Assembly (NCBI GenBank): GCA_028277445.1 | Contig: JANQGG010000054.1 | Location: forward strand, 1 to 64,000 | Direction: 5' to 3' | Source of the DNA: Chloroherpetonaceae bacterium | GTDB taxonomy: Bacteria > Bacteroidota > Chlorobiia > Chlorobiales > Chloroherpetonaceae | Length of the DNA stretch: 64,000 nucleotides | Part shown: positions 7,543 through 26,840 of the stretch, piece by piece | Layout: the number at the start of each line of letters is the position of its first letter | Numbering within the stretch: position 1 is the first letter of the stretch | Program-made: the position numbers and the translations under genes | Notes under the pieces: model-generated | Told to the model about the DNA's origin: nothing | Database searches by the model: none | Seen by the model: the letters and a program-made list of their open reading frames with translations, nothing else

Positions 7543-7557
7543 TAATTTTAAACAGAT

Positions 7558-8862: not shown

Positions 8863-8864
8863 GA

Positions 8865-8890
8865 ATCGGGTATTATTAACCCGATGTTTT
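8865..8890 (+). terminator. Intrinsic terminator after surA
   Basis: The arms ATCGGGT (8865-8871) and ACCCGAT (8879-8885) enclose a 7-base loop and are followed by GTTTTT. It begins two bases after the surA stop codon. Confidence 0.8.
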
Positions 8891-9038
8891 TATAATAGTA
8901 TTATTTTTTTTCCTGAGTTGTTTGCCAAGCAGCTTGGAGCCTGCCGAAGCACTAACGAATGGGTATATAAACTGCAAAATCGGTACTTCGTTATGCTCAG
9001 CACAAGCATTTGGCTACGCTCAATGACCGATTTTTTTT
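8891..9038 (+). repeat. Intergenic repeat family 1, copy B
   Basis: This copy starts TATAATAGTATTATTTT, then CCTGAGTTG, TTGCCAAGCAGCTTG, GAGCCTGCCGAAGCAC, and ends in a hairpin with arms AAAATCGGT (8976-8984) and ACCGATTTT (9026-9034). Its first 60 bases closely match copy C at 19609-19672. It occupies the spacer between surA and the small acidic protein gene, which otherwise holds nothing I can identify. Confidence 0.65.
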
Positions 9039-9144
9039 TCGACCTTTATCAAAATTTTCAGTTGAATTAAAATTATAGAAATCGCCAATTGTGCTGATTC
9101 CTAAGACATACATACCAGATTAATAATAACTAAACAATAATAAA

Positions 9145-9351
9145 ATGGATTTAGAAAAAATCATGAATGGCTTGCAAGAAGAGCTGATGCGTGCATTGCA
9201 GGATATGGCAACTGCCAAAAACCTGGATGATCGCCAGGCTTTATCTGAAATTGTCAGTAACATCAGCGATTCCATGGGTGTATTTTTGGAAGCCGCCGCT
9301 GCTTATGATGATTTTGATGATGATTTTTACGACGAAGATGAAGAGATATAG
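9145..9351 (+). CDS. Small acidic hypothetical protein
   Basis: 68 residues, no signal peptide or membrane segment. Residues 1-50 form a probable amphipathic helix pair, and the last 15 residues are almost all Asp, Glu, Tyr and Phe (DDFDDDFYDEDEEI). I recognise no family. The ATG is preceded by an AT-rich leader and the reading frame has no competing gene, so I consider it real but small enough to be uncertain. A DNA-mimic or protein-partner role is conceivable from the acidic tail but unsupported. Confidence 0.55.
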   Translation: MDLEKIMNGLQEELMRALQDMATAKNLDDRQALSEIVSNISDSMGVFLEAAAAYDDFDDDFYDEDEEI

Positions 9352-9520
9352 CCCTCTGTACTGATTCCACAAATTTCTTCCCGTGCCACTTAAGCCTTAT
9401 TTAAGCTGGCCTGATCTTCTTTTTGGTCTTCTACTCTGGAAGTGGGATTTGAGCTTTCGTTTAAAATGTTGTAATATCTATCAAAGTTTTGCCCTCGTTA
9501 CACTATGATAGGCTAAAACC

Positions 9521-11689
9521 ATGTCCTTATCCCAACTGTTTTCACTTGCTGATAAATCCCCTCAAACCAGAGCGTTAAGCGTTACGCTTGTCACCATATT
9601 TTTTATTGGCATCATTACCGGGTTGGGTTTTCTAAACTCGTTGGAGCTGAAAACCTTGGATGTCAGGCAGGTTAGCGCAGAGCGATCAACTCTGCCCGAT
9701 AGCGCCATTGTGTTGCTGGCCATTGATCAGAACAGTTTGGATTTTTTTGAAGAGCAAGGCGTGCCCTGGCCCTGGCCAAGGGAATTTTACGGCGTCCTTG
9801 TCAGCTTTCTTTCGGAAGCCGGCGTTAAAGCCATCGCTTTTGATCTTGATTTTTCAAGCAAGGGCTTGGATAGGCAGGAAAGCTCAGGTGAGGAATCCGA
9901 TTTTCAATTTGCCGAAGCCATGCAAGACGCCAATCGAGTCATTTTAACGGCGCATTTATCCGTTAAAGACACAGGCGATCAATCCGGAGCAAGCATTTTA
10001 CCCCGGCATACATTTAATCATAAATCGTTACCCTTAAATCAAGAGACCTATAACCGCGCCAGCGCGCCCATAGAGATGTTTCAATCGACCGCATCCCGGC
10101 TTGGTGTGGTGAATTTTGAAGCCGATGAAGATGGCGTGGCGCGTAAAATCCCATTACTGTATTCTTTTAACAACGCCTATTTGCCACAATTCGCTTTTGC
10201 CATATACGAACAGGTCTCAAAATACGCCGGCATTGACCCGGAGTCCAAACTATCAGAATTGCCTTTAAATGACCGCGGTGAAGCGCTCATTAAATGGTAT
10301 GGCCGATCGGGTTCGGAGGGCGTTTTCCCATACTTATCTGCGGCATCGGTTTTAGTATCGTCGTTTAAGTTTATGGGAGGGGTTGAGCCCGATATAAAGC
10401 CGGACTATTTCAAAGATAAACATGTGATCGTTGGCGCAACAGCGGCAGGATTATGGGATTACAAACCCACGCCGTTTTCTTCCCTTGAACCTTGCCCCGG
10501 AATGGAAATTCACGCCACCATTCTGAGCAATTTGCTCAACGACGATTTTATAAAATATTACCCCAAATGGCTGGAGTTTTTGTTGATCGTATTAATAGCT
10601 TTTGTGGTATCCCAGGCTTTTTTCCATATCCGACGGCTTGAAATAGCATCCGTATTGATCCTTGTTCTTTTGGTAGGGTTTGTGGCCGCATCGTATTGGG
10701 TTTTTATCACGTTTAATTATTGGGTTCCGGTAGTTGCCCCGTTAAGCGCGTTAGGGTTATCGTTACTTTTATCAGCAATGTTTAGCTATGCTACGGAAGG
10801 AAAGCAGAAACGTGAATTAAGGCGGATTTTTTCCAGGTATTTAAGTCCGCAGGTTATTGAAGAAGTTGTTGAACGCGCCGATGAAATTGAGCTTGGTGGA
10901 AAAGAAGTTCAGGCAACCGTGTTTTTTTCGGACATCAAAGGTTTTACATCAATTTCGGAAAACCTACCCCCAAAACAGCTTGTATCGTATTTGAATGAGT
11001 ATTTATCGCTAGGATCGGACATTCTGCAACGGCATGGGGCTATGATAGATAAATACATTGGCGATGCCATTATGGCGTTATTTGGCGCACCGGTTACCGC
11101 AAATGATCATGCGAAAAATGCCTGCCTGGCAGCGTTGGAAATGCAGGATTACCTGACAAAGTTTTACCAGGCGCAACAAACCGATGAGTTACCTGAGTTT
11201 ATAACGCGAATCGGTTTGCACTCAGGCACGATGGTTATCGGGCATATCGGTTCAAACAGTCGCTCCGATTATACGGCAATTGGCGATACGGTTAATACCG
11301 CTTCCAGGCTTGAAGGCGTCAATAAGCAATTCGGCACAAACATCATCATTAGTGAATCAACGTACGAACAGGCCAAAAATTTTGTGGAAGTTCGTGAGTT
11401 GGATTCTATTCGCGTTAAAGGCCGTCACAAACCCATTTCAATTTTTGAATTAATGGCAAAAAAAGGGGAAATAACCCCACAAAACGAACGGAAACGCACT
11501 CGCTTTGCCGATGGATTAAACCTATATCGCGCCAAAGCGTTTCATGATGCACAAAGTGTGTTTAAGTCCATTTTAGAGGAAAATCCGGGGGATGGCCCGT
11601 CTCAAACGTATGTATCACGGTGTGAGACATTGGCTCAACAAACGCTTCCAGAGCGCTGGGATGGCGTTTTTACCTTAACCACAAAGTAA
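9521..11689 (+). CDS. CHASE2-domain adenylate cyclase
   Basis: 722 residues. Order: one membrane helix (about 20-37), an extracytoplasmic CHASE2 sensor (about 40-340, with WPWPREFYGVLVSFL and the GATAAGLWDYKPTP stretch), three membrane helices (about 347-425), a class III cyclase domain (about 455-640) and a short helical tail. The two metal-binding Asp are D471 (FFSDIKGFT) and D515 (YIGDAIMALFG). The transition-state pair is N592 and R596 (VNTASRLE). Lys511 and Thr585 occupy the purine-specifying positions as in bacterial adenylate cyclases, so the product should be cAMP. The next gene starts 7 bases downstream. Confidence 0.92.
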   Translation: MSLSQLFSLADKSPQTRALSVTLVTIFFIGIITGLGFLNSLELKTLDVRQVSAERSTLPDSAIVLLAIDQNSLDFFEEQGVPWPWPREFYGVLVSFLSEAGVKAIAFDLDFSSKGLDRQESSGEESDFQFAEAMQDANRVILTAHLSVKDTGDQSGASILPRHTFNHKSLPLNQETYNRASAPIEMFQSTASRLGVVNFEADEDGVARKIPLLYSFNNAYLPQFAFAIYEQVSKYAGIDPESKLSELPLNDRGEALIKWYGRSGSEGVFPYLSAASVLVSSFKFMGGVEPDIKPDYFKDKHVIVGATAAGLWDYKPTPFSSLEPCPGMEIHATILSNLLNDDFIKYYPKWLEFLLIVLIAFVVSQAFFHIRRLEIASVLILVLLVGFVAASYWVFITFNYWVPVVAPLSALGLSLLLSAMFSYATEGKQKRELRRIFSRYLSPQVIEEVVERADEIELGGKEVQATVFFSDIKGFTSISENLPPKQLVSYLNEYLSLGSDILQRHGAMIDKYIGDAIMALFGAPVTANDHAKNACLAALEMQDYLTKFYQAQQTDELPEFITRIGLHSGTMVIGHIGSNSRSDYTAIGDTVNTASRLEGVNKQFGTNIIISESTYEQAKNFVEVRELDSIRVKGRHKPISIFELMAKKGEITPQNERKRTRFADGLNLYRAKAFHDAQSVFKSILEENPGDGPSQTYVSRCETLAQQTLPERWDGVFTLTTK

Positions 11690-11696
11690 TGTAAAG

Positions 11697-12941
11697 ATGA
11701 AAAAAACGATTAAAGTACTTGTTGCTCTCCTGCTTGTATGCGCAATTCCGTTTTCGCTCATCGCCCAGGAGGGATTTACCAAGCGAAGTCTTAATTACAT
11801 TCGCAGCGGACCGGGTATTTATTTTCAGTTAAAAGATAAGCTTTTAAGGAATCAAAAAGTTACCATACTTGAAGAGAAGAAGAATTGGGTGAAAGTACGA
11901 TATGACAAATCGGAAGTGGGCTGGATGTCAAAAAACTCACTATCTATGATTCGGAGTAAACGCAGCTATGCCGACCGTTTCCTGAATGTTACGGCGTCTA
12001 AAAAAGTCTCCCGAATCGGCATGTCGGCTGCGGTTAAAGCATTCGGTGAAAAAATAGGACGCGTTGAAGACCGGGAGTTGGATCGTATTGTGGATCAGAT
12101 GCACAGTGGCTTCAGCCAGTCGGATTACGAGCGATTTAAATTGCCGTTGGAAAAGCATTTGAAACGTAGCCGGGGAAGTTCGGTGTATCGAATGGAGTTG
12201 AAATTACAGCCCAAGTCCGATATTCTTTCTCAATCCAATATGGGCGCGGCCATAGCGGCAAAGATCATCAATCATTATGGCTTGGTGGATGATGCAAGGC
12301 TTAGTGAATATCTGAATCTCATGAGCGCTGCGCTGACAGAACATACCCGATTCTACGATATCCCGTTTTATGTGTTCATCCTCGATTCGGAAGAGCTTAA
12401 TGGATTTGCCTGTCCGGGTGGATTTATTTGTATTACCAAGGGTTTGATTGAATCCTGTTCGGATGAGTCTGAACTGGCCGCGGTTATCGCACACGAAATG
12501 GGGCACATTCTTCTCGGACATGGCGCGCATGAAATGGAAAAGCGTAAGCCTCAGATTAAAGCTGAGTCGGCATTTGCAGAATTGGATCAGGAAACCGACG
12601 GTTATTCCGAAGATGAGCACGAAATGGATGAGATGATCATGGATATGTACGATCGCATTGTTCGCAAGCGATTGCTTAAGTATGAGTTTGAAGCCGATAA
12701 CATTTCAGCCGTGATCCTCGCTAATGCGGGCTACGATGCCGAAGCCATTATTCGAATGATCCAAACCATGAATCTGAACCAGGCTGATAAGCCCGATCAT
12801 TATGAATTTGATTCCGAGTTCTTTTCGCCCGATGAAATGCATCTGCGTTTAAACCAGGTATCTTATTTTGTAAAATCAAATTATGCCGCTTTAACCAAAG
12901 GGCTTCGATTGCAGAAGCGTTTTGAAGTGATGGTGAAATAA
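11697..12941 (+). CDS. SH3-domain M48 family metalloprotease
   Basis: 414 residues with a signal peptide (1-23, ending SLIAQ). A bacterial SH3 domain follows (about 28-82, with SLNYIRSGPG and VGWMSKNSL), then a linker and an M48 peptidase domain (about 180-400). The zinc site is HEMGH (H266, E267, H270), with the third ligand Glu in YEFEADNIS. Such periplasmic BepA-like enzymes act on misassembled envelope proteins. It lies 7 bases behind the cyclase gene, so the two are likely co-expressed, a pairing I would not have predicted from function. Confidence 0.9.
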   Translation: MKKTIKVLVALLLVCAIPFSLIAQEGFTKRSLNYIRSGPGIYFQLKDKLLRNQKVTILEEKKNWVKVRYDKSEVGWMSKNSLSMIRSKRSYADRFLNVTASKKVSRIGMSAAVKAFGEKIGRVEDRELDRIVDQMHSGFSQSDYERFKLPLEKHLKRSRGSSVYRMELKLQPKSDILSQSNMGAAIAAKIINHYGLVDDARLSEYLNLMSAALTEHTRFYDIPFYVFILDSEELNGFACPGGFICITKGLIESCSDESELAAVIAHEMGHILLGHGAHEMEKRKPQIKAESAFAELDQETDGYSEDEHEMDEMIMDMYDRIVRKRLLKYEFEADNISAVILANAGYDAEAIIRMIQTMNLNQADKPDHYEFDSEFFSPDEMHLRLNQVSYFVKSNYAALTKGLRLQKRFEVMVK

Positions 12942-12987
12942 CGCCAACGATCACGGCTTAAATCAGTACGGATTGATTTTGTGGCGC

Positions 12988-14676
12988 TCAGTTTAAGACC
13001 TCTTGCAACGCCCGGCCATCATATTGGGTTGATGCATTTGGCGAAAGCTTTAACAAATGATGAAGGGTTGGCGCAATGTCTGCCGGCGAGCAGGAGTCGT
13101 CATAATCCCCCGCTTTAATGCCCTGCCCGAAAAGAAGTAGCGGAACATGGCGGTCGTAATCGTGCGGCGTTCCATGGGATGTACCGGTTTGTTTTGAAAT
13201 AATCACATGAGGTTTATAGACAATATAAATATCGCCATTACGGTTTGGGTGATATGAATTCAAGACAAGCTTACCGATACCGCTCAATCCGCCTAAAACC
13301 AGATCCGAACGTGTAAAAACTTCCGAGACATAACTGAGCTGTTTGGTTTGTTTGGCGACAAACGACTCAATTTCTGCGGTGTAAAGATCGTCTTCTTCAA
13401 TAATCTGATGATTGAGCAATATTTCGTTTTTTGAAAAGTATTGAATGATTTTAGGGTAACGCTCCTCAACAAAAATTTTTAGGGAATCTATCACTTCGTC
13501 GCTATTTAGGCGGCGGCCATCGTCCATAAACTCAGGGAGCGGACACACACCGTGATCGGCTGTCAAGACAATCAAACAGCTATCCAGGCCGATAACAGAA
13601 TCGATGTAAAGAAACAGATCGTCCAATTGACGATCTAATCGAACCGTCATATCCTGTATTTCCTGACTCATTGGCCCGAAAATGTGACCGCAATAATCCA
13701 GTGACGAATACGATACGGTTAAGAGATCGGTAACATTTCGCTGACCTAATTGTTCATGTAAAATGGTTTCTTTAGCCAGTTTGGTGGTTAAATCGTCGCC
13801 GAACGGTGTGGGAAGAATGGCATCAAATCGCCGGGAGTTTCGAAGCCTTGGATCATTTAATGTTGATATATCCTGAATCAAATGGGGAAATGTTCGGGTT
13901 TTTTCGCCCGGTATCATCCCTTCGCCATAAACATCATCAACCATGTCGTAGTTTTTATCGGGAAGCAGTTTATTCCAGGTTTTCCCTAAATACGACTCAG
14001 GGTGGCTTTTATCATTAAAAGCTTTAAGCCACAGAGGAAGTTTACCTTTTGGGTAATAGTATGAACTGGATATCCATTTGCCGCTTCCGGCGTCAAACCA
14101 ATAAGCAGCATCGGCCTTGTGCCCTACCGGCAATATTGCACCACGATCCTTAATGGCAAGCCCGATGACTTTGCTTTTTGGAGAATCGGCTTTAAGATGA
14201 TCGCCTAAAGTTTGTACCAGGAGGTTTTTGGGTGAGCGCATCCCGTATTTTGTTTTGCTATATTCCCCAACCGGCTTAGCAGTACTGTCTTCAACACAAT
14301 ACATAAACCGATTCTCTGATCGGACGAACCAGTTATTGGTGACAATGCCGGACTTTGCCGGAAAGCAGCCGGAGAGAAACGTGGCGTGCCCCGGGCCTGT
14401 GTTTGTAGCGCTGTGCTCATAGCGGCAGTTCTTAAATGAAGCGCCCAGTTTTTTAAGCTTTCGAAACCCGCCGCTTTTTTCACCAACCGGCAAAAACATC
14501 CTTTCAAACCGATCAAGGTAATCGTAACGAAGCTGATCGACGACAATGCCTACAATGAGCTTGTATTTGGGGTTAGCCTTATTATGATTTTGTTGGGCAA
14601 CGGCTGTGCTAAAAAAGGAGAAACCAGATATGAATAAACCAAGAAGAAAGAATGCCAAAGTCTTGAAATATTGCAT
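12988..14676 (-). CDS. PafA-type alkaline phosphatase
   Basis: 562 residues with a signal peptide (1-28), hence periplasmic. It belongs to the alkaline phosphatase superfamily. D47 (VVDQLR) begins the metal site, Thr93 in NTGPGHATF aligns with the Thr nucleophile of PafA, N115 (TNNWF) and the K176-x-R178 pair (IKDRGAILPVGH) match the PafA monoesterase residues, and SLDYCGHIFGP and TADHGV supply further metal ligands. The K-x-R pair argues for a phosphate monoesterase rather than a diesterase. It lies 29 bases downstream of gyrB on the same strand. It would release phosphate from organic phosphomonoesters. Confidence 0.88.
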   Translation of the reverse strand: MQYFKTLAFFLLGLFISGFSFFSTAVAQQNHNKANPKYKLIVGIVVDQLRYDYLDRFERMFLPVGEKSGGFRKLKKLGASFKNCRYEHSATNTGPGHATFLSGCFPAKSGIVTNNWFVRSENRFMYCVEDSTAKPVGEYSKTKYGMRSPKNLLVQTLGDHLKADSPKSKVIGLAIKDRGAILPVGHKADAAYWFDAGSGKWISSSYYYPKGKLPLWLKAFNDKSHPESYLGKTWNKLLPDKNYDMVDDVYGEGMIPGEKTRTFPHLIQDISTLNDPRLRNSRRFDAILPTPFGDDLTTKLAKETILHEQLGQRNVTDLLTVSYSSLDYCGHIFGPMSQEIQDMTVRLDRQLDDLFLYIDSVIGLDSCLIVLTADHGVCPLPEFMDDGRRLNSDEVIDSLKIFVEERYPKIIQYFSKNEILLNHQIIEEDDLYTAEIESFVAKQTKQLSYVSEVFTRSDLVLGGLSGIGKLVLNSYHPNRNGDIYIVYKPHVIISKQTGTSHGTPHDYDRHVPLLLFGQGIKAGDYDDSCSPADIAPTLHHLLKLSPNASTQYDGRALQEVLN

Positions 14677-14705
14677 AAAGACTGAGGTTTTATGGTTTTT
14701 AAGAA

Positions 14706-16637
14706 TTAGACGTCCAAACGGCGTACATATTTTGCATTCGTTTCAATAAACACTCGACGTGGTTCAACCTGGTCGCCCATCAGGGTTGAAAATATTTTAT
14801 CGGCCTCCATAGCATTTTCAATCGTTACCTGTTGCAAGGTTCTGGTTTCAGGGTCCATGGTTGTGCTCCAGAGCTGCTCCGGGTTCATTTCACCCAAACC
14901 TTTATAGCGCTGGACATTCACATTATCCTTGCCTTTTGATTCATACTCTTTGATGATGTCATCGCGCTCGTCATCATCCCAGGCATAAGCCGATTTCTTA
15001 CCGCTTTTTACTAAATACAGCGGCGGCTGGGCAATATAAATGCGTCCGGATTCAACAAGGTTGCGCATGTACCTGAATAAAAACGTGAGCAGCAAAGTTC
15101 GAATATGTGCGCCATCCACGTCGGCATCCGTCATTAAAATAATTTTGCCATACCTGAGCTTATCGGCGTCGAATTCGTCATCGCCAATACTCGTACCAAG
15201 CGCCATAATAATGGTTCGAATTTCTTCGTTTTCAAGCATTTTATTCAAACGTGATTTCTCCACATTCAGGATTTTACCTTTTAACGGTAAAATAGCCTGA
15301 AAACGACGATCGCGGCCTTGTTTGGCGCTGCCGCCGGCCGAATCACCCTCTACAATGTAAAGCTCACAATGCTCGGGATCGTTGATTGAACAGTCGGCAA
15401 GTTTTCCCGGAAGAGAGGACGATTCAAGCGCCGATTTTCGGCGGGTTAAATCTTTTGCTTTACGAGCGGCATCTCGCGAAACTGCGGCGCTCATAACTTT
15501 TTCAAGGATAATCTTCAGCTCACCCGGATGGCTTTCGATATGCTCGGAAAGCCTTTCATTAACCAGGCTTTCAACAATGCTTTGCGTTTCGGAGTTGCCC
15601 AGTTTGGTTTTGGTTTGGCCTTCAAACTGAGGTTCGGGCACTTTAACTGAAATTACCGCTGTAAGTCCTTCTCTGAAATCTTCGCCGGTTAAGGAAAGCT
15701 TAAAATTTTTAAACAGGTCGTTTTTTTGCCCGTAGTAATTCAATGTTCGGGTCAATGCTTTTCGAAACCCGGTAACATGCGTGCCGCCTTCGTGAGTATT
15801 AATATTATTGACATAGCTGAATATGTTTTCCTGATACATGTCGTTGTATTGAAACGCTATTTCAACAATTGTTCCTTCTCGCTCGGCTTCAAAGTAAATC
15901 GGGGCTTTAATGAGGCTCATCCGGGATGAATCCATGAATGTCACAAACTCGCGTATGCCGCCCTCGAAATGATACGTGTCTTCCCTGCCATCTCGTTCAT
16001 CTTTAACATGAATGGTAAGATTTCTATTTAAATACGCTAATTCGCGCATACGGTCGGCTATAGTATCATAACGGTATTCGCAAGATTTAAAAATCGATCT
16101 ATCCGGCAAAAATGTCGTTTTTGTTCCTTTTTCTTTTGTTTTGCCAATGACTTTGACTGTTGATTGAGGGATACCTTTTTCATATCGCTGATGGTGGATT
16201 TTTCCATCACGGTAAACTTCAACTTCGCACCATTCCGATAATGCATTAACCACCGAAGCGCCCACGCCATGAAGACCGCCGGAAACTTTGTAAGCCCCTT
16301 TATCGAATTTGCCTCCGGCGCCAATGACGGTCATAACCAGTTCCAATGCTGATTTCTTTTTCGTAGGATGGATATCGGTTGGAATACCCCTACCTTTATC
16401 TCTGACCGTAACGCTGCCATCATGATTTAAAGAGATGAATATGTAGTCGTTGTATCCACCTAAAGCTTCATCTACGGAATTATCCGTGATTTCATAGACC
16501 AAGTGGTGCAACCCTCTTGAGCTAACATCGCCAATATACATCGCCGGCCTGCGTCGGACGTGTTCAATTCCATCAAGAACCTGAATATTGGAAGCACCAT
16601 AATCTGTGGTTTGATCGGGAGCATTCGCTTCTAACAT
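14706..16637 (-). CDS. gyrB: DNA gyrase subunit B
   Basis: 643 residues, the normal length for GyrB without the enterobacterial insertion. The GHKL ATPase domain has EITDNSVDEA (with the Mg-binding Asn), DKGRGIPTDIHP and GGLHGVGASVVNAL. The TOPRIM domain shows EGDSAGGSAKQGRDR and DADVDGAHIRTLLLTF. The C-terminal end has the QRYKGLGEMNPEQLW motif that contacts GyrA. With GyrA it introduces negative supercoils using ATP. gyrA is not in the window. The 277-base spacer upstream of it (16638-16914), shared with the divergent kinase gene, shows nothing I can name. Confidence 0.97.
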   Translation of the reverse strand: MLEANAPDQTTDYGASNIQVLDGIEHVRRRPAMYIGDVSSRGLHHLVYEITDNSVDEALGGYNDYIFISLNHDGSVTVRDKGRGIPTDIHPTKKKSALELVMTVIGAGGKFDKGAYKVSGGLHGVGASVVNALSEWCEVEVYRDGKIHHQRYEKGIPQSTVKVIGKTKEKGTKTTFLPDRSIFKSCEYRYDTIADRMRELAYLNRNLTIHVKDERDGREDTYHFEGGIREFVTFMDSSRMSLIKAPIYFEAEREGTIVEIAFQYNDMYQENIFSYVNNINTHEGGTHVTGFRKALTRTLNYYGQKNDLFKNFKLSLTGEDFREGLTAVISVKVPEPQFEGQTKTKLGNSETQSIVESLVNERLSEHIESHPGELKIILEKVMSAAVSRDAARKAKDLTRRKSALESSSLPGKLADCSINDPEHCELYIVEGDSAGGSAKQGRDRRFQAILPLKGKILNVEKSRLNKMLENEEIRTIIMALGTSIGDDEFDADKLRYGKIILMTDADVDGAHIRTLLLTFLFRYMRNLVESGRIYIAQPPLYLVKSGKKSAYAWDDDERDDIIKEYESKGKDNVNVQRYKGLGEMNPEQLWSTTMDPETRTLQQVTIENAMEADKIFSTLMGDQVEPRRVFIETNAKYVRRLDV

Positions 16638-16914
16638 AAACGTGATAAACTGTGAAAATTAATTATGAAATGTAAATGCTTTGTGCAGAAGTATAGAGCT
16701 GAAGACACACTCATTTCTATTGCTTTAAGCTTGATAATTTAAGCAATTTTTTCCAGAAATACGATTTTTACTCCTAAGGCCGCTTAAAAAAACAAAAGCA
16801 TTAATTGCTAAAAATTGACTATTATAAGTTGTTGATTTTATTGGTCCATAAATGCATAACTGACATATAAATTGTAATCCCAGAAAAACTATTTAATGAA
16901 AACGTTAACCATCC

Positions 16915-19554
16915 GTGATGATTAACATAAGTTTCGTCGGTTCTCACTCCTTATTGAGTTCGGCATTTATTATTGCGTTAGCTGAAGCAGAAATTAATGT
17001 CATATACCAATCAAAACCCTTCAAACCGCTAATCAATACCAACGTAGCTGCCTCGTTTTGGATACTTGAAAATGAAGCGGATTACCAAGCCCTGATCAAT
17101 ATCATATCAACAGGAAAATTATTTCCCATTGTAGTTGCAAAACCCAAGCATGAGTTGCTAGCTATAGAAGCTGTAAAGCAAGGGGCTGGAGATTATGTGT
17201 TAACCACTTGGCAACATCGATTTGAGTTAATGTTGGATAAGCTGAAGTTAAGGATTAAGTCACAATCAGCAATTTCAGAAAATCATTCCACGCCTTCCGA
17301 GCATTTCCATCCCTTTGATGCGGTCATAAAAAATATTTATGAAGGGGCTTTGATCGGTGATTTTAGTGGAAACGTACTTCATTGTAACAACATTTTTACT
17401 GAGTTGCTCGGATACCCGCGTCATGAATTGGTCGGTCAAGCATTATTAAACTTTGTTACCCAAAGCGATAAAAATCAAGTTGAAGAATCTTTTAAGACCT
17501 TGAAAGAAAAAGGTTTAAGCATATGTTCGCTAACATTTAAAAAAAACGATGGATCGGATGTTTCTCTTGAACTCACAAGCTTTTTGTTTGGTGAAGGTTT
17601 TGAGCAAAAGTTTTTTTCAGTCGTCCGAAATCTGACCACCCAACAACGTATTGAAAATGAGCATCGGAATACTGAAAAGATTTATAAGATGCTTGCTGAA
17701 AATGCAACTGATGTTATTGCCACGTTCGACAAAAGTTTAAACATTACTTATGTCAGCCCGTCGGTTAAAGAACTGCTTGGTTATACCCCTGATGAAGTTA
17801 AAATGATGGGATTGACCACAATTTTATCGCCTGAAATCTATGAGAAGATGGTTTCATTATACAAAGCGCGGTTAAAAAAAATGAGATTGGGAGAGGATTG
17901 GCAGTATAAAAATCAAATACAGATAGAAATAAAACACAAAAATGGCAACACGATTCCAGTTGAATACATTTCAAATCCGATAGTAAGCGAGCAAGGTGAG
18001 TTCATCGGTATGTTGGCAAATGCAAGAGATATTACGGAGCGAAAACAAGCTGAAGCTGCGCTAAAGGTATCCGAAAAGCGTTTTTCCGCAATATTTCATG
18101 CCAGTCCTGAGCCAATGATTATAACTCGTATAAAGGATGGTTTGATCTGGGACGTTAACCAGGCATTTTTGAATATTCTCAAGTATCAGAGAGATGAAGT
18201 TGTCGGCAAATCAACATTAGATATAAATTTGTGGCCTACGCCCGAAGATCGAAAGAGTTATTTAAAGAGACTTTTAGGTCATGGAAGAGTTCAAAATCTT
18301 GAGCTAAAATATATGAACCGATTCGGTGGGTATCATTACGGGATAACCTCTTCTGAAATTATAACAATTGATGATGAAGAGTATGTAATCACAGTCAGCC
18401 GCGATGTTACCCAGCGAAAGAAAAATGAAGAAAAGCTTTTTTTTCAAGCTATGATTCTAAATCAGGTTCGCAATGCGGTGTGTGTCACTAATTTGCAGCA
18501 TCAGGTGATTTATTGGAATAAATTTTCTGAAGATTGCTATGGATGGGCTCAATGCGAAGTTCTCGATAAAAACGTTTTTGACTTTCTAATTCCTAAAAAT
18601 GAACATGAAAAACATAGAGAAATTTTTGAGGATGTGTTGAATACCGGTTTTTGGGAAGGTGAAAGTTTCTTGTTTAGAAAAGATAAAACGCGGTTTTATT
18701 GTTTTAGTACCATCACATTATTGCAGGATTCGGATAATCGTGTGCAAGGGTTTATTAGCGTAAGTACGGACATCAGTGAACGAAAATTATTGGAAAAACA
18801 GCTTGGCCAGGCCCAAAAAATGGAGGCGCTGGGGCGGCTTACCGGTGGCGTTGCCCACGATTTTAACAATTTACTATTGGCAATTTTGGGAAGTGTGGAA
18901 TTAATGAAAATCAAAGCCGGAGATGCGCCACAATTAACCAAACACTTAAATCGCATACACTCGTCGGCCAAGCGCGGCGCGGATTTAACACGAAAACTTC
19001 TCACATTTTCCAGGCAGGAAAAGGGCTCGGAAAAACCCATTGATGTGAATCACGCTATCCGCACCGTTATTGAGATCATTGAGCATACCATTGATCGGCG
19101 CATAAATCTGGAAATGCAGTTATGCGATGAAAAGGCGATCATTTTAGGGGATGAAAATCAGATTGAGTTGGTGATTTTAAACATAACCGTGAATGCTGCA
19201 GATGCAATTAAGCAAACGTTTGACGAAAAGAATCAAGGTGAAATTTTTTTAAAAACACAAATCATCAGCCCTGAAGATACCGATAATCAGCCCGTTAATT
19301 TGTTTAAAGACCGTCGCTATGTTCATATTGAAATTACCGATACCGGAATCGGCATTGATGAAAATATTTTATCGTTAATTTTTGAACCGTTTTTTACCAC
19401 CAAAGAAAAAGAAAACGGTACCGGCTTGGGTTTATCGATGTCTTATGGAGCGATAAAAAATCATCACGGTGAAATCATTGTTCATAGCAAGAAAAATGAA
19501 GGCACATCGTTCCACATATTTTTACCTAAAATTATGTCTGAAAGCGCTAGTTGA
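16915..19554 (+). CDS. Multi-PAS sensor histidine kinase with pseudo-receiver
   Basis: 879 residues, apparently soluble. The start is GTG at 16915 or the adjacent ATG at 16918. Residues 1-115 look like a receiver domain (ending AIEAVKQGAGDYVLT), but the acidic pocket and phospho-acceptor Asp are not present. Four PAS domains follow (about 140-250, 258-378, 384-500, 506-625), then the HisKA dimerisation domain with phospho-acceptor H648 (GGVAHDFNN), and an ATPase domain with an Asn box near 760 (NITVNAADAI), DTGIGID and GTGLGLS. No response regulator is adjacent. The C-terminal half closely resembles the kinase at 20167. Confidence 0.93.
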   Translation: MMINISFVGSHSLLSSAFIIALAEAEINVIYQSKPFKPLINTNVAASFWILENEADYQALINIISTGKLFPIVVAKPKHELLAIEAVKQGAGDYVLTTWQHRFELMLDKLKLRIKSQSAISENHSTPSEHFHPFDAVIKNIYEGALIGDFSGNVLHCNNIFTELLGYPRHELVGQALLNFVTQSDKNQVEESFKTLKEKGLSICSLTFKKNDGSDVSLELTSFLFGEGFEQKFFSVVRNLTTQQRIENEHRNTEKIYKMLAENATDVIATFDKSLNITYVSPSVKELLGYTPDEVKMMGLTTILSPEIYEKMVSLYKARLKKMRLGEDWQYKNQIQIEIKHKNGNTIPVEYISNPIVSEQGEFIGMLANARDITERKQAEAALKVSEKRFSAIFHASPEPMIITRIKDGLIWDVNQAFLNILKYQRDEVVGKSTLDINLWPTPEDRKSYLKRLLGHGRVQNLELKYMNRFGGYHYGITSSEIITIDDEEYVITVSRDVTQRKKNEEKLFFQAMILNQVRNAVCVTNLQHQVIYWNKFSEDCYGWAQCEVLDKNVFDFLIPKNEHEKHREIFEDVLNTGFWEGESFLFRKDKTRFYCFSTITLLQDSDNRVQGFISVSTDISERKLLEKQLGQAQKMEALGRLTGGVAHDFNNLLLAILGSVELMKIKAGDAPQLTKHLNRIHSSAKRGADLTRKLLTFSRQEKGSEKPIDVNHAIRTVIEIIEHTIDRRINLEMQLCDEKAIILGDENQIELVILNITVNAADAIKQTFDEKNQGEIFLKTQIISPEDTDNQPVNLFKDRRYVHIEITDTGIGIDENILSLIFEPFFTTKEKENGTGLGLSMSYGAIKNHHGEIIVHSKKNEGTSFHIFLPKIMSESAS

Positions 19555-20166: not shown

Positions 20167-21729
20167 GTGTTGCTACTTTTGGAATTCAGCTCTAGGCAGG
20201 ACTTTCAATCCATTGAAAAACTTATGTTTCAAGGCACACGTATAAAAAACAAAATGCCCCTCATTATCGCTTTTGGACTTCTGACACTTATTATTCCTTA
20301 TGATATGATTGGACGACCATTAATGGTTTCCTTCAATTATTTTGATGTTCTTGCGAAAGGCGCTACAGGCGTCATTATCTTGTTAGGGATTTATTTATCC
20401 ACAACGCTAACATCAAGTTCAAAAACATTTTACCTGATATTTTTCGGTTTAGCCTGCTATTTCATTTCGGTTCAAGTGGATTTTTTTGAAGAAATCTATT
20501 TTCGTCCCCAGTATGGCGTGTATGAATTTATTGAGCATTATGGCGTTACATTGGGAGTACTATTGGTGAGCATCGGCGTATTTAAACTGGGGGTTGAGCA
20601 TAATCATTCTAATCAATGGCGTTACGATATGGCAACAGGCGCCGGTCAGGTTGGCGTATGGGATTGGAATTTGGAAACCCACGAGTTTTTTGCCGACTCT
20701 CATCTTAAAGCCATGCTGGGGTATAAAGATAATGAGGTGCCAAATCGAATCGATGATTGGAGTAAGCTGGTTCATCCTGATGATAGAGAAGATATGGTGG
20801 AAAAGGCACTGTTATATTTAAAGGGTGAACTTCCCCATTATGAAGTTGTCCGACGTATGCTTCATAAAGACGGATCAATAAAATGGTTTTTAACCCGTGG
20901 ATCGGCGCTCACCGATAAAAGTGGAAAACCATACCGAATAATCGGAACGGATACGGACATTAGTGAGCAACGATTATTGGAAATCCAGTTGATTCAATCC
21001 CAAAAGATGGAGGCCGTTGGACGCCTAACCGGTGGCTTGGCGCATGATTTCAACAATCTCCTGGCAGCTATTATTGGTAGTGCAACTATTTTGGAAAAAC
21101 AATTGCAGGACAACCCATTTTTGTTAAAACAAGCAACCCGTATTCATCTTTCGGCCAAACGCGGCGCTGATTTAACGAAAAAGTTGCTGGGATTTTCACG
21201 CATGGAAAAAAAAGAGTCCCAAACGATTGATGCCCGTCGCTGTGTTGAAACTGTAATTGATCTTATGGAACACACCATCGACAAGCGGATTACCATCAAG
21301 AAACAGTTTTGTGATATCAAAACGTATGTGCTTGCCGATCAAAATCAAATTGAACTTGCCATAATGAACCTGGCTGTAAATGCCTGCGACGCTATAAAAC
21401 CTGTGATTGATAAACGGCACTACAGTGAATTGCGTTTTGACATTGATGTAGAAAGTATTACCGAGCCTTTTGCAGAAAAACACCAAATCCAACCGGGCTG
21501 CGACTATGTTCGCATAACCATTGGCGATACCGGCATCGGAATTTCGGAAGACATGTTGCAGGAAATTTTTGAGCCATTTTACACGACCAAAGATTCGGAA
21601 AAAGGCACGGGTTTGGGTTTGTCAATAACTTATGGTACTGTTAAAAGTTATGGCGGGGCGATTACCGTTGAAAGCACTTTGGGGTATGGCTCTAAGTTTA
21701 ACATCTATTTACCGAAATATGAGGAGTGA
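20167..21729 (+). CDS. Membrane-bound PAS sensor histidine kinase
   Basis: 520 residues, starting at GTG; a start at the ATG 57 bases further in is also possible. Four membrane helices lie at about 28-48, 55-82, 90-110 and 118-140. A PAS domain of the PAS_3 type covers about 150-265 (GVWDWNLETHEFF, HPDDRE). The HisKA domain carries H293 (GGLAHDFNN). The ATPase domain shows NLAVNACDAIK, DTGIGISED and GTGLGLS. It is complete and resembles the kinase at 16915 over the catalytic half. Its stop overlaps the GTG of the next gene by 4 bases, so it leads the operon up to 26840. Confidence 0.93.
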   Translation: MLLLLEFSSRQDFQSIEKLMFQGTRIKNKMPLIIAFGLLTLIIPYDMIGRPLMVSFNYFDVLAKGATGVIILLGIYLSTTLTSSSKTFYLIFFGLACYFISVQVDFFEEIYFRPQYGVYEFIEHYGVTLGVLLVSIGVFKLGVEHNHSNQWRYDMATGAGQVGVWDWNLETHEFFADSHLKAMLGYKDNEVPNRIDDWSKLVHPDDREDMVEKALLYLKGELPHYEVVRRMLHKDGSIKWFLTRGSALTDKSGKPYRIIGTDTDISEQRLLEIQLIQSQKMEAVGRLTGGLAHDFNNLLAAIIGSATILEKQLQDNPFLLKQATRIHLSAKRGADLTKKLLGFSRMEKKESQTIDARRCVETVIDLMEHTIDKRITIKKQFCDIKTYVLADQNQIELAIMNLAVNACDAIKPVIDKRHYSELRFDIDVESITEPFAEKHQIQPGCDYVRITIGDTGIGISEDMLQEIFEPFYTTKDSEKGTGLGLSITYGTVKSYGGAITVESTLGYGSKFNIYLPKYEE

Positions 21730-22694
21730 GCGTTTTGTATGACACGTCATGTTTAAATCTTCCATTAAGCTGGGATTATGCGCCAGGTCAATTGGCCGCG
21801 ATCCGAAAAATCCACCTCCCTTTTTCAAATCTTACCTGGGTTCCATTTGCAACAATTCCAAAACAGTTTTCCTTTAAAGACTTTTTTTCAACGCATATCC
21901 ACACATTAGACGGTGGGTATGTATTAAGGGGTTGCCCAAAACCTGTCGCGGAGTATTTAAAAACAAACCGGGCCGATTGCCTGGTTACCGGCTCGGAAGC
22001 AATATTAAAGTTGTCAGGCAATCATGTTGAAAAGGAATCCGTTCAAAAACAAGTCAGGGCTAATCATAAACTGGGATCAACGTATGAAATAGAGCTCAAT
22101 CAAGAGACCATTGAGAAGCTTGATCGGTTAAAAAAAGGGGCTCGCCACGGCAATAAGCCTCAGCTTGAATTTGTTTTCAGGGATGTTTCTTATGAGGGAT
22201 CGCGGTGTTTTGTGTTTATAGATGCAAAGAAAACCCTGCAAGGCGCTATTACAATGGTCAAACGAAGTGAAACGGCTTACAACATAGAGCTTATGTTAAA
22301 GCATCAAGAGGCTAATTTTGGCGTTATGGAAACCATCATTCACGATGCGTTTTATGCCTTGAAAAAAGAAGGCCTGGCAGAATTGGGTTTGAATGAAGTC
22401 CCCTTCATCCATCTGGAAAAAAAGAAGAAACATCAATTAAACCATGTTGAACGGGCGATGTTGAATGTGGCCAGGGTGATGAAGCCAACGTATAATTACC
22501 AAGGGTTGTATTATTTCAAAAATAAATTCGATCCTATTTGGCGTGATGTTTATTTATGTTCGTCGGGAAAAATTGACGAGCTTTTGCTCTTGGAAATGGC
22601 CTTTAAAATGGGTTATATAAATTTAGCGCTGTTTCAAACGATGAACGATATTCTGGATCCAAAAGCGCTTTTAACGCGTTTGAACATACTATGA
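21726..22694 (+). CDS. DUF2156 / MprF C-terminal-like protein
   Basis: 322 residues, soluble. The sequence follows the phosphatidylglycerol lysyltransferase C-terminal (DUF2156) pattern: paired GNAT-like halves, KQVRANHKLGSTYEIE, a central GVMETIIHDAFYALKKEGLA segment and the late YNYQGLYYFKNKFDPIWRD segment, which matches the FNFkGL-x-x-FK-x-KF-x-P-W motif of MprF. There is no membrane flippase part. It may transfer an aminoacyl or acyl group, but the substrate is unknown. It is translationally coupled to the kinase before it and the DUF4159 gene after it (4-base overlaps on both sides). Confidence 0.75.
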   Translation: MSVLYDTSCLNLPLSWDYAPGQLAAIRKIHLPFSNLTWVPFATIPKQFSFKDFFSTHIHTLDGGYVLRGCPKPVAEYLKTNRADCLVTGSEAILKLSGNHVEKESVQKQVRANHKLGSTYEIELNQETIEKLDRLKKGARHGNKPQLEFVFRDVSYEGSRCFVFIDAKKTLQGAITMVKRSETAYNIELMLKHQEANFGVMETIIHDAFYALKKEGLAELGLNEVPFIHLEKKKKHQLNHVERAMLNVARVMKPTYNYQGLYYFKNKFDPIWRDVYLCSSGKIDELLLLEMAFKMGYINLALFQTMNDILDPKALLTRLNIL

Positions 22695-23380
22695 TGATCA
22701 AGAAATGTAAAGGTTATAACCGGCTGGTATGGGCAAGTTTGCTTCTTGTGTTTTTGTTGCCCGAACCTCAGTATGCAATAGCTCAGGCTAATTTTAAAGT
22801 GGCCCGGTTAAAATATTCCGGCGGCGGCGATTGGTATAATGATCCCTCGGCAATCCCAAACCTGATGGCCTATATTCGAACGAATACCTCTTTACAAACT
22901 CCGGAAACGGAAGATATTGTGGATGTTGGTAGTTCAAAGCTTTTCAACTACCCGTTTGTGTTTTTAACCGGACACGGTCGGATTCGTTTTTCCGATGAAG
23001 AGCGCGATAACTTAAGAACGTACTTAAAATCAGGTGGTTTTCTTTATGCCGATGATGATTATGGCATGGATAAAAGCTTTCGGGATGAAATGAAGGCGCT
23101 GTTTCCTAACAATCCGATTCAAGAGCTGCCATTATCTCATGAGCTTTATTCGATCTATTTTGCGTTCCCAGATGGATTACCCAAAATTCATGAGCATGAT
23201 AATAAGCCGCCGGCGGGTTACGCAATTATCCATAAAGGTCGTGTGGTTGTGGTTTATACTTATGAATCCAATCCCAGCGATGCCTGGGCGGATTCGGAAA
23301 TTCACAAGGAACCTCCTGAAAAAAGAGACGAAGCGTTTAGGTTTGGTACGAATCTTTTATGGCTGGCGCTAAGTCAATAA
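22691..23380 (+). CDS. DUF4159 exported protein
   Basis: 229 residues with an N-terminal signal (about 12-32, cleaving near IAQA). The mature part has the DUF4159 layout: FKVARLKYSGGGDWYNDPSAIPNL near the start, FVFLTGHGRIRFSDEERDNL and then LKSGGFLYADDDYGMDKSF. The fold is related to glutamine amidotransferase-like domains without the catalytic Cys. DUF4159 proteins are often encoded near MoxR-type ATPase and VWA genes. Here the partner is the DUF4175 gene 13 bases downstream. Function unknown. Confidence 0.85.
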   Translation: MMIKKCKGYNRLVWASLLLVFLLPEPQYAIAQANFKVARLKYSGGGDWYNDPSAIPNLMAYIRTNTSLQTPETEDIVDVGSSKLFNYPFVFLTGHGRIRFSDEERDNLRTYLKSGGFLYADDDYGMDKSFRDEMKALFPNNPIQELPLSHELYSIYFAFPDGLPKIHEHDNKPPAGYAIIHKGRVVVVYTYESNPSDAWADSEIHKEPPEKRDEAFRFGTNLLWLALSQ

Positions 23381-23393
23381 CCGGAGAAAATGA

Positions 23394-26300
23394 TTGTGCG
23401 TTATGGATCATGTTTATCGCGACTTGATTTCTCGTTTGCGCCGGGCTCATCAAAAACAAAGGCGCCTTCAATGGATTCGGGCCTTGTTATTATTCATGAT
23501 GTGTTTTGGCCTCATTGTGCTATGCCTCGTATTGCTTGAATCTTTCGTCTTTTTCTCCCAAAGCATTAGACTCGGTTTTGCCATAAGCATGGGCGTTTTT
23601 TGTTTTGTAGCGCTAAGCCTGGTGGTGATCTACCCGATCGTAAAAAATCCCTTTAACACGAATACGTTAGCTAAACTCATCGGCAACAATTTTCCCGATT
23701 TAAGGGATCGGCTTTTAAACGCTTTGCAGCTTTACCACGATGTTGAAAAAACGAACCCGTTTTTAAAAGCTGAAATGCTTGAGCTGGATGAGCTTTGCCG
23801 GGAGATTGATTTTCGTTCGGTCGTTAAAACCGATGCATTAAAAAAATACGTGAAAGTTACAGGGTTAATTTATGCCGTGATTGGGCTGATTTTCTTCAGT
23901 TTCCAGCAGCCGTTGATGGCATCATTAGTAAGGCTGAGGCATGTGGATAAACCATTTTCAATGATGCCGTCAATTGCACTGAAATCGCTCTCAAAAGACA
24001 TTAAAGTGGCTAAAGGCCAGGATGCCCGACTGGTTTTTAAACTGCAATCATCGGATGAAAAGCCATTCATAAATCCGACGGAATTAATTGCAAAAGCTAC
24101 AATTGAGGTTTTTGACACGCAGGGTTTTTTAAGTCAGGATATAGATGTTTTCCCGGATACATTGGGCAAGCTCAGCCATGTGCTTCGAGGGGTTCAAAAA
24201 AATGGCGTTTATCAAGCGAAAATAGACTTCAAAAACAAAGAAAGCCTGGTGAGCCAAACGTTCAACATCCACGTGGTTGAGCCCGGTTATGTGGAGTGGT
24301 TTCAGCTCAGTATTAAACCGCCGGAATACACCCGGCTTGGCGCGCAAGTTTTAGATAAGAACGTTGGCGAAACTACGGTTATTAAAGGCTCGAACGTTTC
24401 AATTCAAGGCCGGTTGAATCGCAATGTGCCACAGTTTGGACTTTCCATAAATGACAAGCCAATGAAACCGCTCAAGCTCAACGCTGCGGGCTTTTCATTC
24501 GCGCAAAGGCTTTACGAGCCGATGACTTTTCAGTTCGTTGTAAAAGACACGCTTCAGCTTCTTAATAAAAAAAGTCCGGTTTATCGCATCGATGTTCTTA
24601 GCGACAACATGCCGGAGATTGAAATTTTAGAACCTCAATCCCGCACAATGGATTTGCCGGGAAATCTTGAAATTGGTATCCGGGGAACTGTTTCGGATGA
24701 TTTTGGCATATCCGGCATCTTTTTATACTACAGGTTGGCTAAAACTGAGTTTGGGGAGGTTCAGGAAACTTTTCAAAAAATACCCATCAAGGATCAATCA
24801 CTTCAGAATCCACTTTCATCAGCATCGCCGTTTGAGAGCGGATTTAGTTATGCCTGGCGATTAAATGACATGCTATTAACAGCCGGCGATGAAATTGAGT
24901 TTTATGTGGAAGCTGCCGATAATGATAATATCTCAGGACCAAAAGCCACCCAATCAGCCATGTTTTACGTGAAATTCCCGGGTTTGGATGAGCTGTTTTC
25001 AAGAGCTGAAACCAAAGAAGCGGACATTTTTGAAAAACTGGATGAGCAAATTTCAAAATCAAAAAAGATTCAAAAAGAGCTCTCTCAGATCGATGCCCGG
25101 CTCAAGCAAAAATCAAAAACTTCATGGGAAGATAAGCAGGATATCGAAAGCCTGAGAAAAGAGCAGCAACAAGCTCTTGAACGCATGGCAGAATTGGCCG
25201 AAAAGCTAAATCGTTTATCCGAAACCCTTGAGGAAAACCAACTGGCTTCCGAAGAAACCCTAAAAAAGTACAGCGAGATCCAGCAGCTCATGGAAGAGCT
25301 GAACGATCCGGAGTTCAAACGTCAACAGGCAAAGCTTCAGGAGGCGCTAAAAAAACTGAATGAAACAGAGATACGGCGAGCGCTTCAAAATATGGATCGC
25401 CTTCAAAAAGATTTTGCACAGCGCCTGGATCGCACCTTGCGATTGCTAAAACGCATGAAAATTGATCGCACATTCGATGAACTGTTGGAGCGTTTAAACA
25501 CAATGGTTGATAAACAGCGCGATATCCAAAAACAAAATAATAAGTCTCGCAAGCCAAGTGACCTAAAGCAAGAACGACTTGCCAAAGAGCAGAAGCATAT
25601 TCAGGATATGCACCGCAGCTATCAAGCATCGTTAAAAGATTTACAAGAACAACTCAAAAACTATGATCATCCTGAAAAGATGCCTCTCTCGGATATGGAT
25701 TCACTGAATCAACGTCAGAAAAACGACAGCCTTGATTCGATGATGAAATCTGCAGAATCGGATATGAAAACCAATCAAAACCGGCAAGCAGCCCAAAAGC
25801 AACAAAAAATTATTTCAAAACTGCTATCGCAACGCCAGTTACTGAGCCAAATGAAGACAAAAGCCAGCATGTTGGATTTGGCGTTTCTAAAAGACTATTT
25901 AATGATGATGATCCGCAAGGCCGTTGATCTTTCAATGCACCAGGAAGACTTGCTGATGAAAATGGAGCGGCAACCCTCCCGGTTAAAGCATGATTCACTT
26001 CAGTTCAAGTTTTCAAAAAACCAAGCCTATTTAAAAGAGCACCTTGGCTATTTGCAAGAAAAAACCAAAGCTATAGGGAATCAATCGCCTAAATTAGAGC
26101 ATGGGATGATGCAGGTTCTAAAACTTGCCGAGATTCATATGGAAAAAGCCATTAATTTGATTCGGAGCGGATATACGTTTCAGATTAAACGCGAAATGGT
26201 ATCAAGCATGAGCTCATTAAACGAGTTCGCCGATAAATCATCCGCTGTTTTAGAGCAATTGCTTTCGCAAAAACCCGCGCAAGGGCAAGGCGGCGGTTCA

Positions 26301-26840
26301 TCTCAAACAAATGCATTGCGGCAATTGGCCAATCAACAGGGTCAGTTAAACAAACAAACCCAAGGCATGCAACCCGGTATGAAACCAGATCACGCCAAAA
26401 GATTGGCGCAACTAGCCGCCCAGCAGCGCTTGCTCCAGAACCAGCTTCAACGCTTGAGCGCACGAAATAAAACAAGCGGCGGGTCAAAAGAAAGGCTTCT
26501 GGGAAATTTGGATGAACTGGCCCAGCAAATGGCTGAAGCTGCTAAAAGTCTTGAATCCAAATCAATCAACCGTGAGTTAATTGAGCGCCAACAGAAAATA
26601 TTATCGAGGTTGTTGGACGCATCAATGGCCATGCGAAAAAACGACTTTGAAAAGAGACGGCAAGCAAAAACGGCTACAAATCCGAAACATTTGCCGCAAC
26701 TAAAAGCATTGCAGGCATATGAAAAATCAATGGTTGAAAAAGCTTTAGACGCATTAAACCTCAATGAGTATTCCGATGATTATCAAAAAATCATTCGGAA
26801 CTACTATCAAAAAATTGAAAAAGCGCTTTATAAAAACTAA
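23394..26840 (+). CDS. Giant DUF4175 membrane-anchored coiled-coil protein
   Basis: 1148 residues. A GGAG at 23383-23386 is 7 bases before the TTG at 23394 and 16 before the in-frame ATG at 23403, so the TTG start is plausible. Three membrane helices (about 25-50, 58-82, 150-170) are followed by beta-rich domains (about 200-540) and a long charged coiled coil (about 545-830). The C-terminal third is rich in Gln and Lys, with a GQGGGSSQ linker near 960. This matches DUF4175, a family of unknown function in Bacteroidota and Chlorobiota. Last gene of the kinase-DUF2156-DUF4159-DUF4175 operon. It is probably an envelope scaffold or sensor. Confidence 0.88.
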   Translation: MCVMDHVYRDLISRLRRAHQKQRRLQWIRALLLFMMCFGLIVLCLVLLESFVFFSQSIRLGFAISMGVFCFVALSLVVIYPIVKNPFNTNTLAKLIGNNFPDLRDRLLNALQLYHDVEKTNPFLKAEMLELDELCREIDFRSVVKTDALKKYVKVTGLIYAVIGLIFFSFQQPLMASLVRLRHVDKPFSMMPSIALKSLSKDIKVAKGQDARLVFKLQSSDEKPFINPTELIAKATIEVFDTQGFLSQDIDVFPDTLGKLSHVLRGVQKNGVYQAKIDFKNKESLVSQTFNIHVVEPGYVEWFQLSIKPPEYTRLGAQVLDKNVGETTVIKGSNVSIQGRLNRNVPQFGLSINDKPMKPLKLNAAGFSFAQRLYEPMTFQFVVKDTLQLLNKKSPVYRIDVLSDNMPEIEILEPQSRTMDLPGNLEIGIRGTVSDDFGISGIFLYYRLAKTEFGEVQETFQKIPIKDQSLQNPLSSASPFESGFSYAWRLNDMLLTAGDEIEFYVEAADNDNISGPKATQSAMFYVKFPGLDELFSRAETKEADIFEKLDEQISKSKKIQKELSQIDARLKQKSKTSWEDKQDIESLRKEQQQALERMAELAEKLNRLSETLEENQLASEETLKKYSEIQQLMEELNDPEFKRQQAKLQEALKKLNETEIRRALQNMDRLQKDFAQRLDRTLRLLKRMKIDRTFDELLERLNTMVDKQRDIQKQNNKSRKPSDLKQERLAKEQKHIQDMHRSYQASLKDLQEQLKNYDHPEKMPLSDMDSLNQRQKNDSLDSMMKSAESDMKTNQNRQAAQKQQKIISKLLSQRQLLSQMKTKASMLDLAFLKDYLMMMIRKAVDLSMHQEDLLMKMERQPSRLKHDSLQFKFSKNQAYLKEHLGYLQEKTKAIGNQSPKLEHGMMQVLKLAEIHMEKAINLIRSGYTFQIKREMVSSMSSLNEFADKSSAVLEQLLSQKPAQGQGGGSSQTNALRQLANQQGQLNKQTQGMQPGMKPDHAKRLAQLAAQQRLLQNQLQRLSARNKTSGGSKERLLGNLDELAQQMAEAAKSLESKSINRELIERQQKILSRLLDASMAMRKNDFEKRRQAKTATNPKHLPQLKALQAYEKSMVEKALDALNLNEYSDDYQKIIRNYYQKIEKALYKN

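Follow-up and report, generated by a model that had tools for sequence, protein, structure and literature searches.

A run of kinase, DUF2156, DUF4159 and DUF4175 genes in a Chloroherpetonaceae bacterium as a probable junction of two modules

We describe a tightly packed run of four genes, for a membrane histidine kinase, a DUF2156 protein, a DUF4159 protein and a DUF4175 protein, the order of which is present in no other genome that we searched. Its second half, DUF4159–DUF4175, is an old and conserved part, as judged by joint presence and frequent adjacency, and we consider it highly probable that two independent modules, each with a history of its own, meet in the run at a lineage-specific junction. 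Checking the four-gene run exposed a functionally unassigned envelope pair, DUF4159 and DUF4175, which stand together in all 108 genomes of the phylum sample that have either one, and which lie near kinases in several lineages. If the two proteins form a complex, it would be an undescribed envelope machine common to much of the FCB group.

Layout and conservation of the four-gene run

The window, that is, the whole stretch of DNA analysed here (64,000 nucleotides), comprises positions 1-64000 of contig C36 of a genome that we label G000. All four open reading frames of the run are on the + strand, with no space between them for a further gene. They are listed here together with an upstream gene that is outside the four-gene unit:

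16915..19554, + strand: upstream multi-PAS histidine kinase (Pfam), kin of the run's first gene
20167..21729, + strand: membrane-anchored PAS histidine kinase, 520 aa, GTG start; PAS_3 + HisKA + HATPase_c (Pfam)
21726..22694, + strand: stand-alone LPG_synthase_C (former DUF2156), 322 aa, GTG start; PF09924, 70.2 bits
22691..23380, + strand: DUF4159, 229 aa, ATG start; PF13709, 220.8 bits
23403..26840 (ATG) or 23394..26840 (TTG), + strand: DUF4175, 1148 aa from the TTG; PF13779, 46.4 bits

The kinase and DUF2156 genes overlap by 4 bases (GTGA), as do the DUF2156 and DUF4159 genes (ATGA); the gap between DUF4159 and DUF4175 is 13 bases from TTG 23394 and 22 bases from ATG 23403. The ORF list and the sequence thereby bear out an earlier note on this DNA, which had described four frames tied by 4-base overlaps and a 13-base gap. 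We regard ATG 23403, and hence the 22-base gap, as the more likely arrangement, because its MDHVYRDL aligns with the MANHIYDDL of a relative at locus L043. At the other end of the run, GTG 20167 has no obvious ribosome site, and the start codon of the kinase is uncertain. A promoter scan scored no better than shuffles, a terminator scan was only ~1 standard deviation above them, and Rfam gave zero matches across 16-28 kb of the window. Co-transcription is probable, and the overlapping genes would tie the doses of their products together. As the earlier note had also observed, a response regulator is missing: neither the ORF list nor Pfam places a receiver-domain gene in the run.

The earlier note had combined the four genes into one envelope sensing or modification module, the order of which was to be sought in relatives; in no related genome searched is the four-gene unit kept together, which is the outcome that the note had named as refuting its reading. 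In G005, the sole other genome of the family and a single contig of 3,293,456 bases, DUF4175 is found at 747.7-751.1 kb, a kinase–DUF2156 pair at ~820-823 kb and DUF4159 at 1549 kb. Among the 148 genomes of the phylum sample, LPG_synthase_C and DUF4159 are both encoded, besides the window genome, in G005, G030, G066, G070, G081, G116, G140 and G142 (weak); the two are neighbours in 0 of these, being on different contigs or far apart. Moreover, within the stretches examined, a relative of the window DUF2156 accompanies 0/80 named DUF4159 loci. What survives of the single module is therefore its two sub-units: DUF4159–DUF4175, which is kept widely, and kinase–DUF2156, which is kept in the two family members with non-orthologous kinases.

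Might the four products nevertheless work as one functional system, in which the kinase senses the state of the envelope, DUF2156 modifies a lipid or surface molecule, and DUF4159–DUF4175 is the periplasmic response? The two 4-base overlaps are consistent with such a system, and so are the kinases that recur beside DUF4159–DUF4175; furthermore, the kinase–DUF2156 coupling recurs in G005 with the same overlap, the kinase there being no orthologue yet of the same restricted type, which could mean selection for the coupling. Against this, the order is lacking in every other genome searched, and the parts occur separately: there are Chlorobiaceae-like genomes with DUF2156 but neither DUF4159 nor DUF4175, and most of the phylum sample has those two and no DUF2156. 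We consider a single system very unlikely, and retain a junction of two modules as our preferred reading. The four-gene unit is then probably a local accident, although the tight overlaps could reflect real functional integration in this lineage; with one other genome as the family sample, a recent selected union and a chance union look alike.

The kinase and the DUF2156 protein

We propose that in the first module (module A) a stand-alone transferase of dual-GNAT type (LPG_synthase_C) follows a membrane PAS kinase specific to the family. By hydropathy, the window kinase has hydrophobic segments at its N terminus (~residues 30-144), followed by PAS_3 (175-261), HisKA and HATPase_c; the receiver domain is absent. 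The kinase thus has the HisKA and HATPase_c domains expected of a two-component sensor, with no response regulator encoded alongside. We infer its signal and its output; most likely it would act through an unlinked response regulator.

Within the order, the N-terminal sensor region is found only in the window genome and in G005. The closest relative of the window kinase is a G005 kinase at 1741 kb (53% identity over 492 aa) that lacks a DUF2156 neighbour; the kinase that does adjoin DUF2156 in G005 is a different paralogue, 38% identical to the window kinase. The upstream kinase at 16915-19554, which ends 612 bases before the run, is 48% identical to the window kinase over 287 aa, and its first 135 residues matched no Pfam family. 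In a phylogenetic tree the window kinase, the upstream kinase and the G005 kinase at 1741 kb form one clade (support 99/99). We accordingly rejected the idea that the window kinase and its counterpart next to the G005 DUF2156 are orthologues, on the strength of both the identities (53% versus 38%) and this clade. Identity along the length has no clear switch of the kind expected from gene conversion. Both family members have the 4-base overlap between kinase and DUF2156, and, since the kinases at this recurring coupling are not orthologous, the coupling either has two origins or results from a re-pairing of the genes.

The DUF2156 protein is a member of the LPG_synthase_C family, its PF09924 score of 70.2 bits exceeding the cut-off of 27.5, and it matches the C-domain of MprF distantly (4v34, E 1.4e-6). 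Relatives occur in 35/98 genomes of the order; a separate search for related loci with the DUF2156 protein as query gave no match. We take R742 of MprF to be the arginine at its DLMRx position, a mapping of our own; in the alignment the window protein has a leucine there (ELMLK) in place of an R742-type arginine. The region of MprF S684 corresponds to a different motif in the window protein, and the position of S684 itself is ambiguous in the alignment. Both R742 and S684 have been reported as relevant for MprF synthase activity (PMC11630815).

These features bear upon the possibility of an MprF-like lipid modification controlled by the kinase, with aminoacyl-phosphatidylglycerol as the product of DUF2156. 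In its favour, the protein scores above the family cut-off, and it shares with the C-domains of MprF and aminoacyl-PG synthases (4v34, 4v36) a conserved FKxKFxPxW segment. Unlike MprF, it is a stand-alone, soluble protein (322 aa, no hydrophobic segment by hydropathy) that lacks the N-terminal flippase membrane domain; the replacement of the DLMRx arginine by leucine and a bifunc_MprF (NCBIfam) score of 51 bits against a cut-off of 600 argue in the same direction. We therefore regard such an activity as improbable.

The surroundings of DUF2156 in genomes that we take, from the genes seen, to be Chlorobiaceae-like (family f2) suggest a different role. Upstream of DUF2156, at a distance of ~4-7 kb and on the opposite strand, 8/15 of these loci carry bchK (the gene for bacteriochlorophyll c synthase; NF009058, 607.7 bits) together with a B12 radical-SAM gene. 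Most have at least one small hydrophobic protein before DUF2156 on the same strand; we take these proteins to resemble chlorosome envelope proteins, and they matched no Pfam or NCBIfam chlorosome family. One reading is that DUF2156 is a green sulfur bacterial transferase, associated with chlorosomes or bacteriochlorophyll, that moved to a new place here. The bchK and small-protein neighbours speak for this, as does CsmA in the window genome, one of the members of the order that carry it. It is weakened by the failure of the small proteins to match a chlorosome family, by DUF2156 relatives in genomes that lack CsmA (G116, G066, G070, G140), and by the absence of a bchK-type neighbourhood from both the window genome and G005; we hold this reading to be unlikely. 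The bchK neighbourhood does indicate a second possible role for DUF2156, one that is unrelated to DUF4159.

The DUF4159–DUF4175 pair

We searched for DUF4175 with a profile (A1) built in this analysis from the window protein aligned with 12 relatives (20-32% identity). Of the 148 genomes of the phylum sample, 108 have DUF4159, and the same ones have DUF4175 (Fisher P 5e-35, kinship ignored; genus counts 73 and 74 of 82); the one extra DUF4175 match, in G115, is a weak fragment interrupted by stop codons. DUF4159 comes first and DUF4175 adjoins it in 38 genomes; a TPR histidine kinase separates the two in G129; in most of the Bacteroidia-type genomes sampled the two are not adjacent. The pair recurs across FCB-type phyla, among them Kapabacteria, Ignavibacteria, KSB1, Gemmatimonadota and Neomarinimicrobiota; in the last three named and in further phyla, genes for a TPR protein and a ~260-residue protein often come next. 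Both members are absent from the Chlorobiaceae-like f2 genomes, where the sole DUF4175 match of an order-wide scan (59 residues, E 1.6e-4, in G196) is at chance level; many of these genomes carry DUF2156 despite that absence. In the open-access literature searched, DUF4159 goes unnamed and a single paper mentions DUF4175.

Another observation to emerge from these loci concerns kinases. An enrichment test on both strands was run first (P = 0.012), and a split by strand showed the signal to be in the same direction: kinases within two genes of DUF4175 number 16/260 against a background of 1.6% (pooled-background Poisson P 5.7e-6), an enrichment seen post hoc, from mechanical ORF calls and with kinship only partly corrected. 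The comparison counts are 1/170 near on the opposite strand, 3/449 far in the same direction and 10/385 far on the opposite strand. After removal of DUF4175 sequences >55% identical, the figures are 10/190 versus 0/290. By mutual similarity these kinases fall into ~8 groups, with 5/16 forming one related set; TPR and PAS types were confirmed by Pfam and the others were judged by eye. Since kinases recur in the same direction beside DUF4159–DUF4175, a sensing link for this pair is plausible; the evidence is suggestive rather than proof. The sensing element of the earlier note thus gains independent, suggestive support, with DUF2156 remaining outside the recurring link.

The DUF4159 protein matches PF13709 over the whole domain (profile positions 2-201 of 202; 220.8 bits against a cut-off of 25.9), and its AlphaFold2 model (pLDDT 92) has a known fold, so that its family membership is secure: by Foldseek the best match is 4i66 (E 8.8e-14), then the ThuA-like 4jqs (E 5.6e-3), with GATase1 folds matching weakly. 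Its N terminus resembles a signal peptide. The catalytic nucleophile-elbow cysteine of class I glutamine amidotransferases is missing; cysteine is absent from the mature window protein altogether, and neither alignment (A2, A4) has an invariant cysteine. D121, D122, H167, H169 and W199 are among the invariant residues and could form a metal or ligand site.

The DUF4175 protein belongs to PF13779 (46.4 bits against a cut-off of 27.3), together with full-length relatives, and has three hydrophobic segments by hydropathy. Its AlphaFold2 model (mean pLDDT 80.7, pTM 0.49) predicts Ig-like beta domains at ~190-525 and then ~620 residues of helix or coiled coil to the end; Foldseek returned generic Ig/FnIII matches only, which gave no basis for a function. 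By the positive-inside rule, the beta and helical parts would face the periplasm, as DUF4159 would. Insofar as the earlier note spoke of an envelope module, the signal peptide, the membrane anchor and the predicted periplasmic domains fit that description for DUF4159–DUF4175; lipid modification by DUF2156 within the same module is not supported.

We hypothesize that an ancient periplasmic pair of FCB-type bacteria (module B) was joined to module A, the kinase–DUF2156 pair, in this lineage. In the predicted arrangement, three helices would anchor DUF4175 in the inner membrane, and its Ig-like domains and long helical rod would project into the periplasm. DUF4159, a predicted ThuA/GATase-like domain without a cysteine nucleophile, would be exported by its signal peptide and would most likely be the partner of DUF4175 in a putative envelope-maintenance complex, either binding a ligand or acting as an enzyme other than an amidotransferase. 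We offer this mechanism for module B tentatively. With similar reserve, we suggest that DUF4159 and DUF4175 may form an undescribed, periplasm-spanning FCB complex to which separate lineages would have repeatedly coupled different two-component sensors, here a family-specific membrane PAS kinase.

Comparison with known systems

The structure closest to the window DUF4159 is that of Hoch_4089 (4i66), a DUF4159-type protein listed as uncharacterised; the two share one ThuA/GATase1-like fold. Because the mature part of the window protein lacks cysteine, it is not a classical glutamine amidotransferase.

For DUF4175, a likeness by annotation is offered by AdvA of Acinetobacter baumannii, which is annotated as carrying a DUF4175 domain and in which two membrane helices are predicted (PMC7481262); the excerpted text of that paper reports a role in cell division and draws no link to DUF4159.

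The Bat aerotolerance-type operons (MoxR-DUF58-BatA) with TldD-PmbA house a second DUF4159 paralogue. At L075 the order is TldD-PmbA-DUF4159-MoxR-DUF58-BatA-720 aa, and the 720 aa protein, shorter than the window DUF4175, is also picked up by the DUF4175 profile. In the window genome, DUF58 matches are at C36:112737, C36:114811 and C58:36239, with an apparent Bat operon at ~111-121 kb of C36. Unlike the Bat-type operons, the four-gene unit has no MoxR, DUF58 or vWA gene, and its neighbours include neither MoxR nor DUF58; what the Bat-type operon proteins and the window pair have in common is that both are directed to the membrane or periplasm.

Kinases related to the window kinase

Two proteins are related, in whole or in part, to the window's membrane histidine kinase (20167-21729, + strand):

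16915-19554 of the window: multi-PAS kinase, related to the next kinase (20167-21729)
8476-9972 of locus L260 (contig C62 of the same genome), at the contig end: second protein with the window kinase's N-terminal sensor region

Residues 1-135 of the multi-PAS kinase matched no Pfam family; this segment looks like a degenerate receiver domain. The L260 protein shares the sensor region and differs from the window kinase in its C-terminal part; its neighbours match those of the kinase-DUF2156 locus in G005, the only other genome of the family.

A Bat operon, and DUF4159-DUF4175 in other genomes

An apparent Bat operon, without DUF4159, lies on the window's own contig:

~6909-16938 of locus L263 (G000:C36:104000-123900): MoxR, DUF58, vWA, TPR, BatD-like

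In six loci from KSB1, Gemmatimonadota, Neomarinimicrobiota and UBP14 (L186, L189, L203, L230, L245, L254), a TPR protein of ~600 aa comes after DUF4159-DUF4175, and in most of them so does a conserved, exported-looking protein of ~240-290 aa. Together these genes possibly form a wider four-gene envelope operon. We also noted that the contig PABJ01000055.1 (L177), titled Ectothiorhodospiraceae, encodes a DUF4159 protein 52% identical to the window's, alongside DUF4175, reflecting either transfer or a mislabelled bin.

Surroundings of DUF2156 in Chlorobiaceae-like genomes

In eight Chlorobiaceae-like loci (L089, L091, L092, L095, L096, L098, L104, L105), bchK and a B12 radical-SAM gene lie near the DUF2156 orthologue. 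Small hydrophobic proteins precede DUF2156 on the same strand in most of these loci; L107 has this neighbourhood only in part. These small proteins look like chlorosome envelope proteins.
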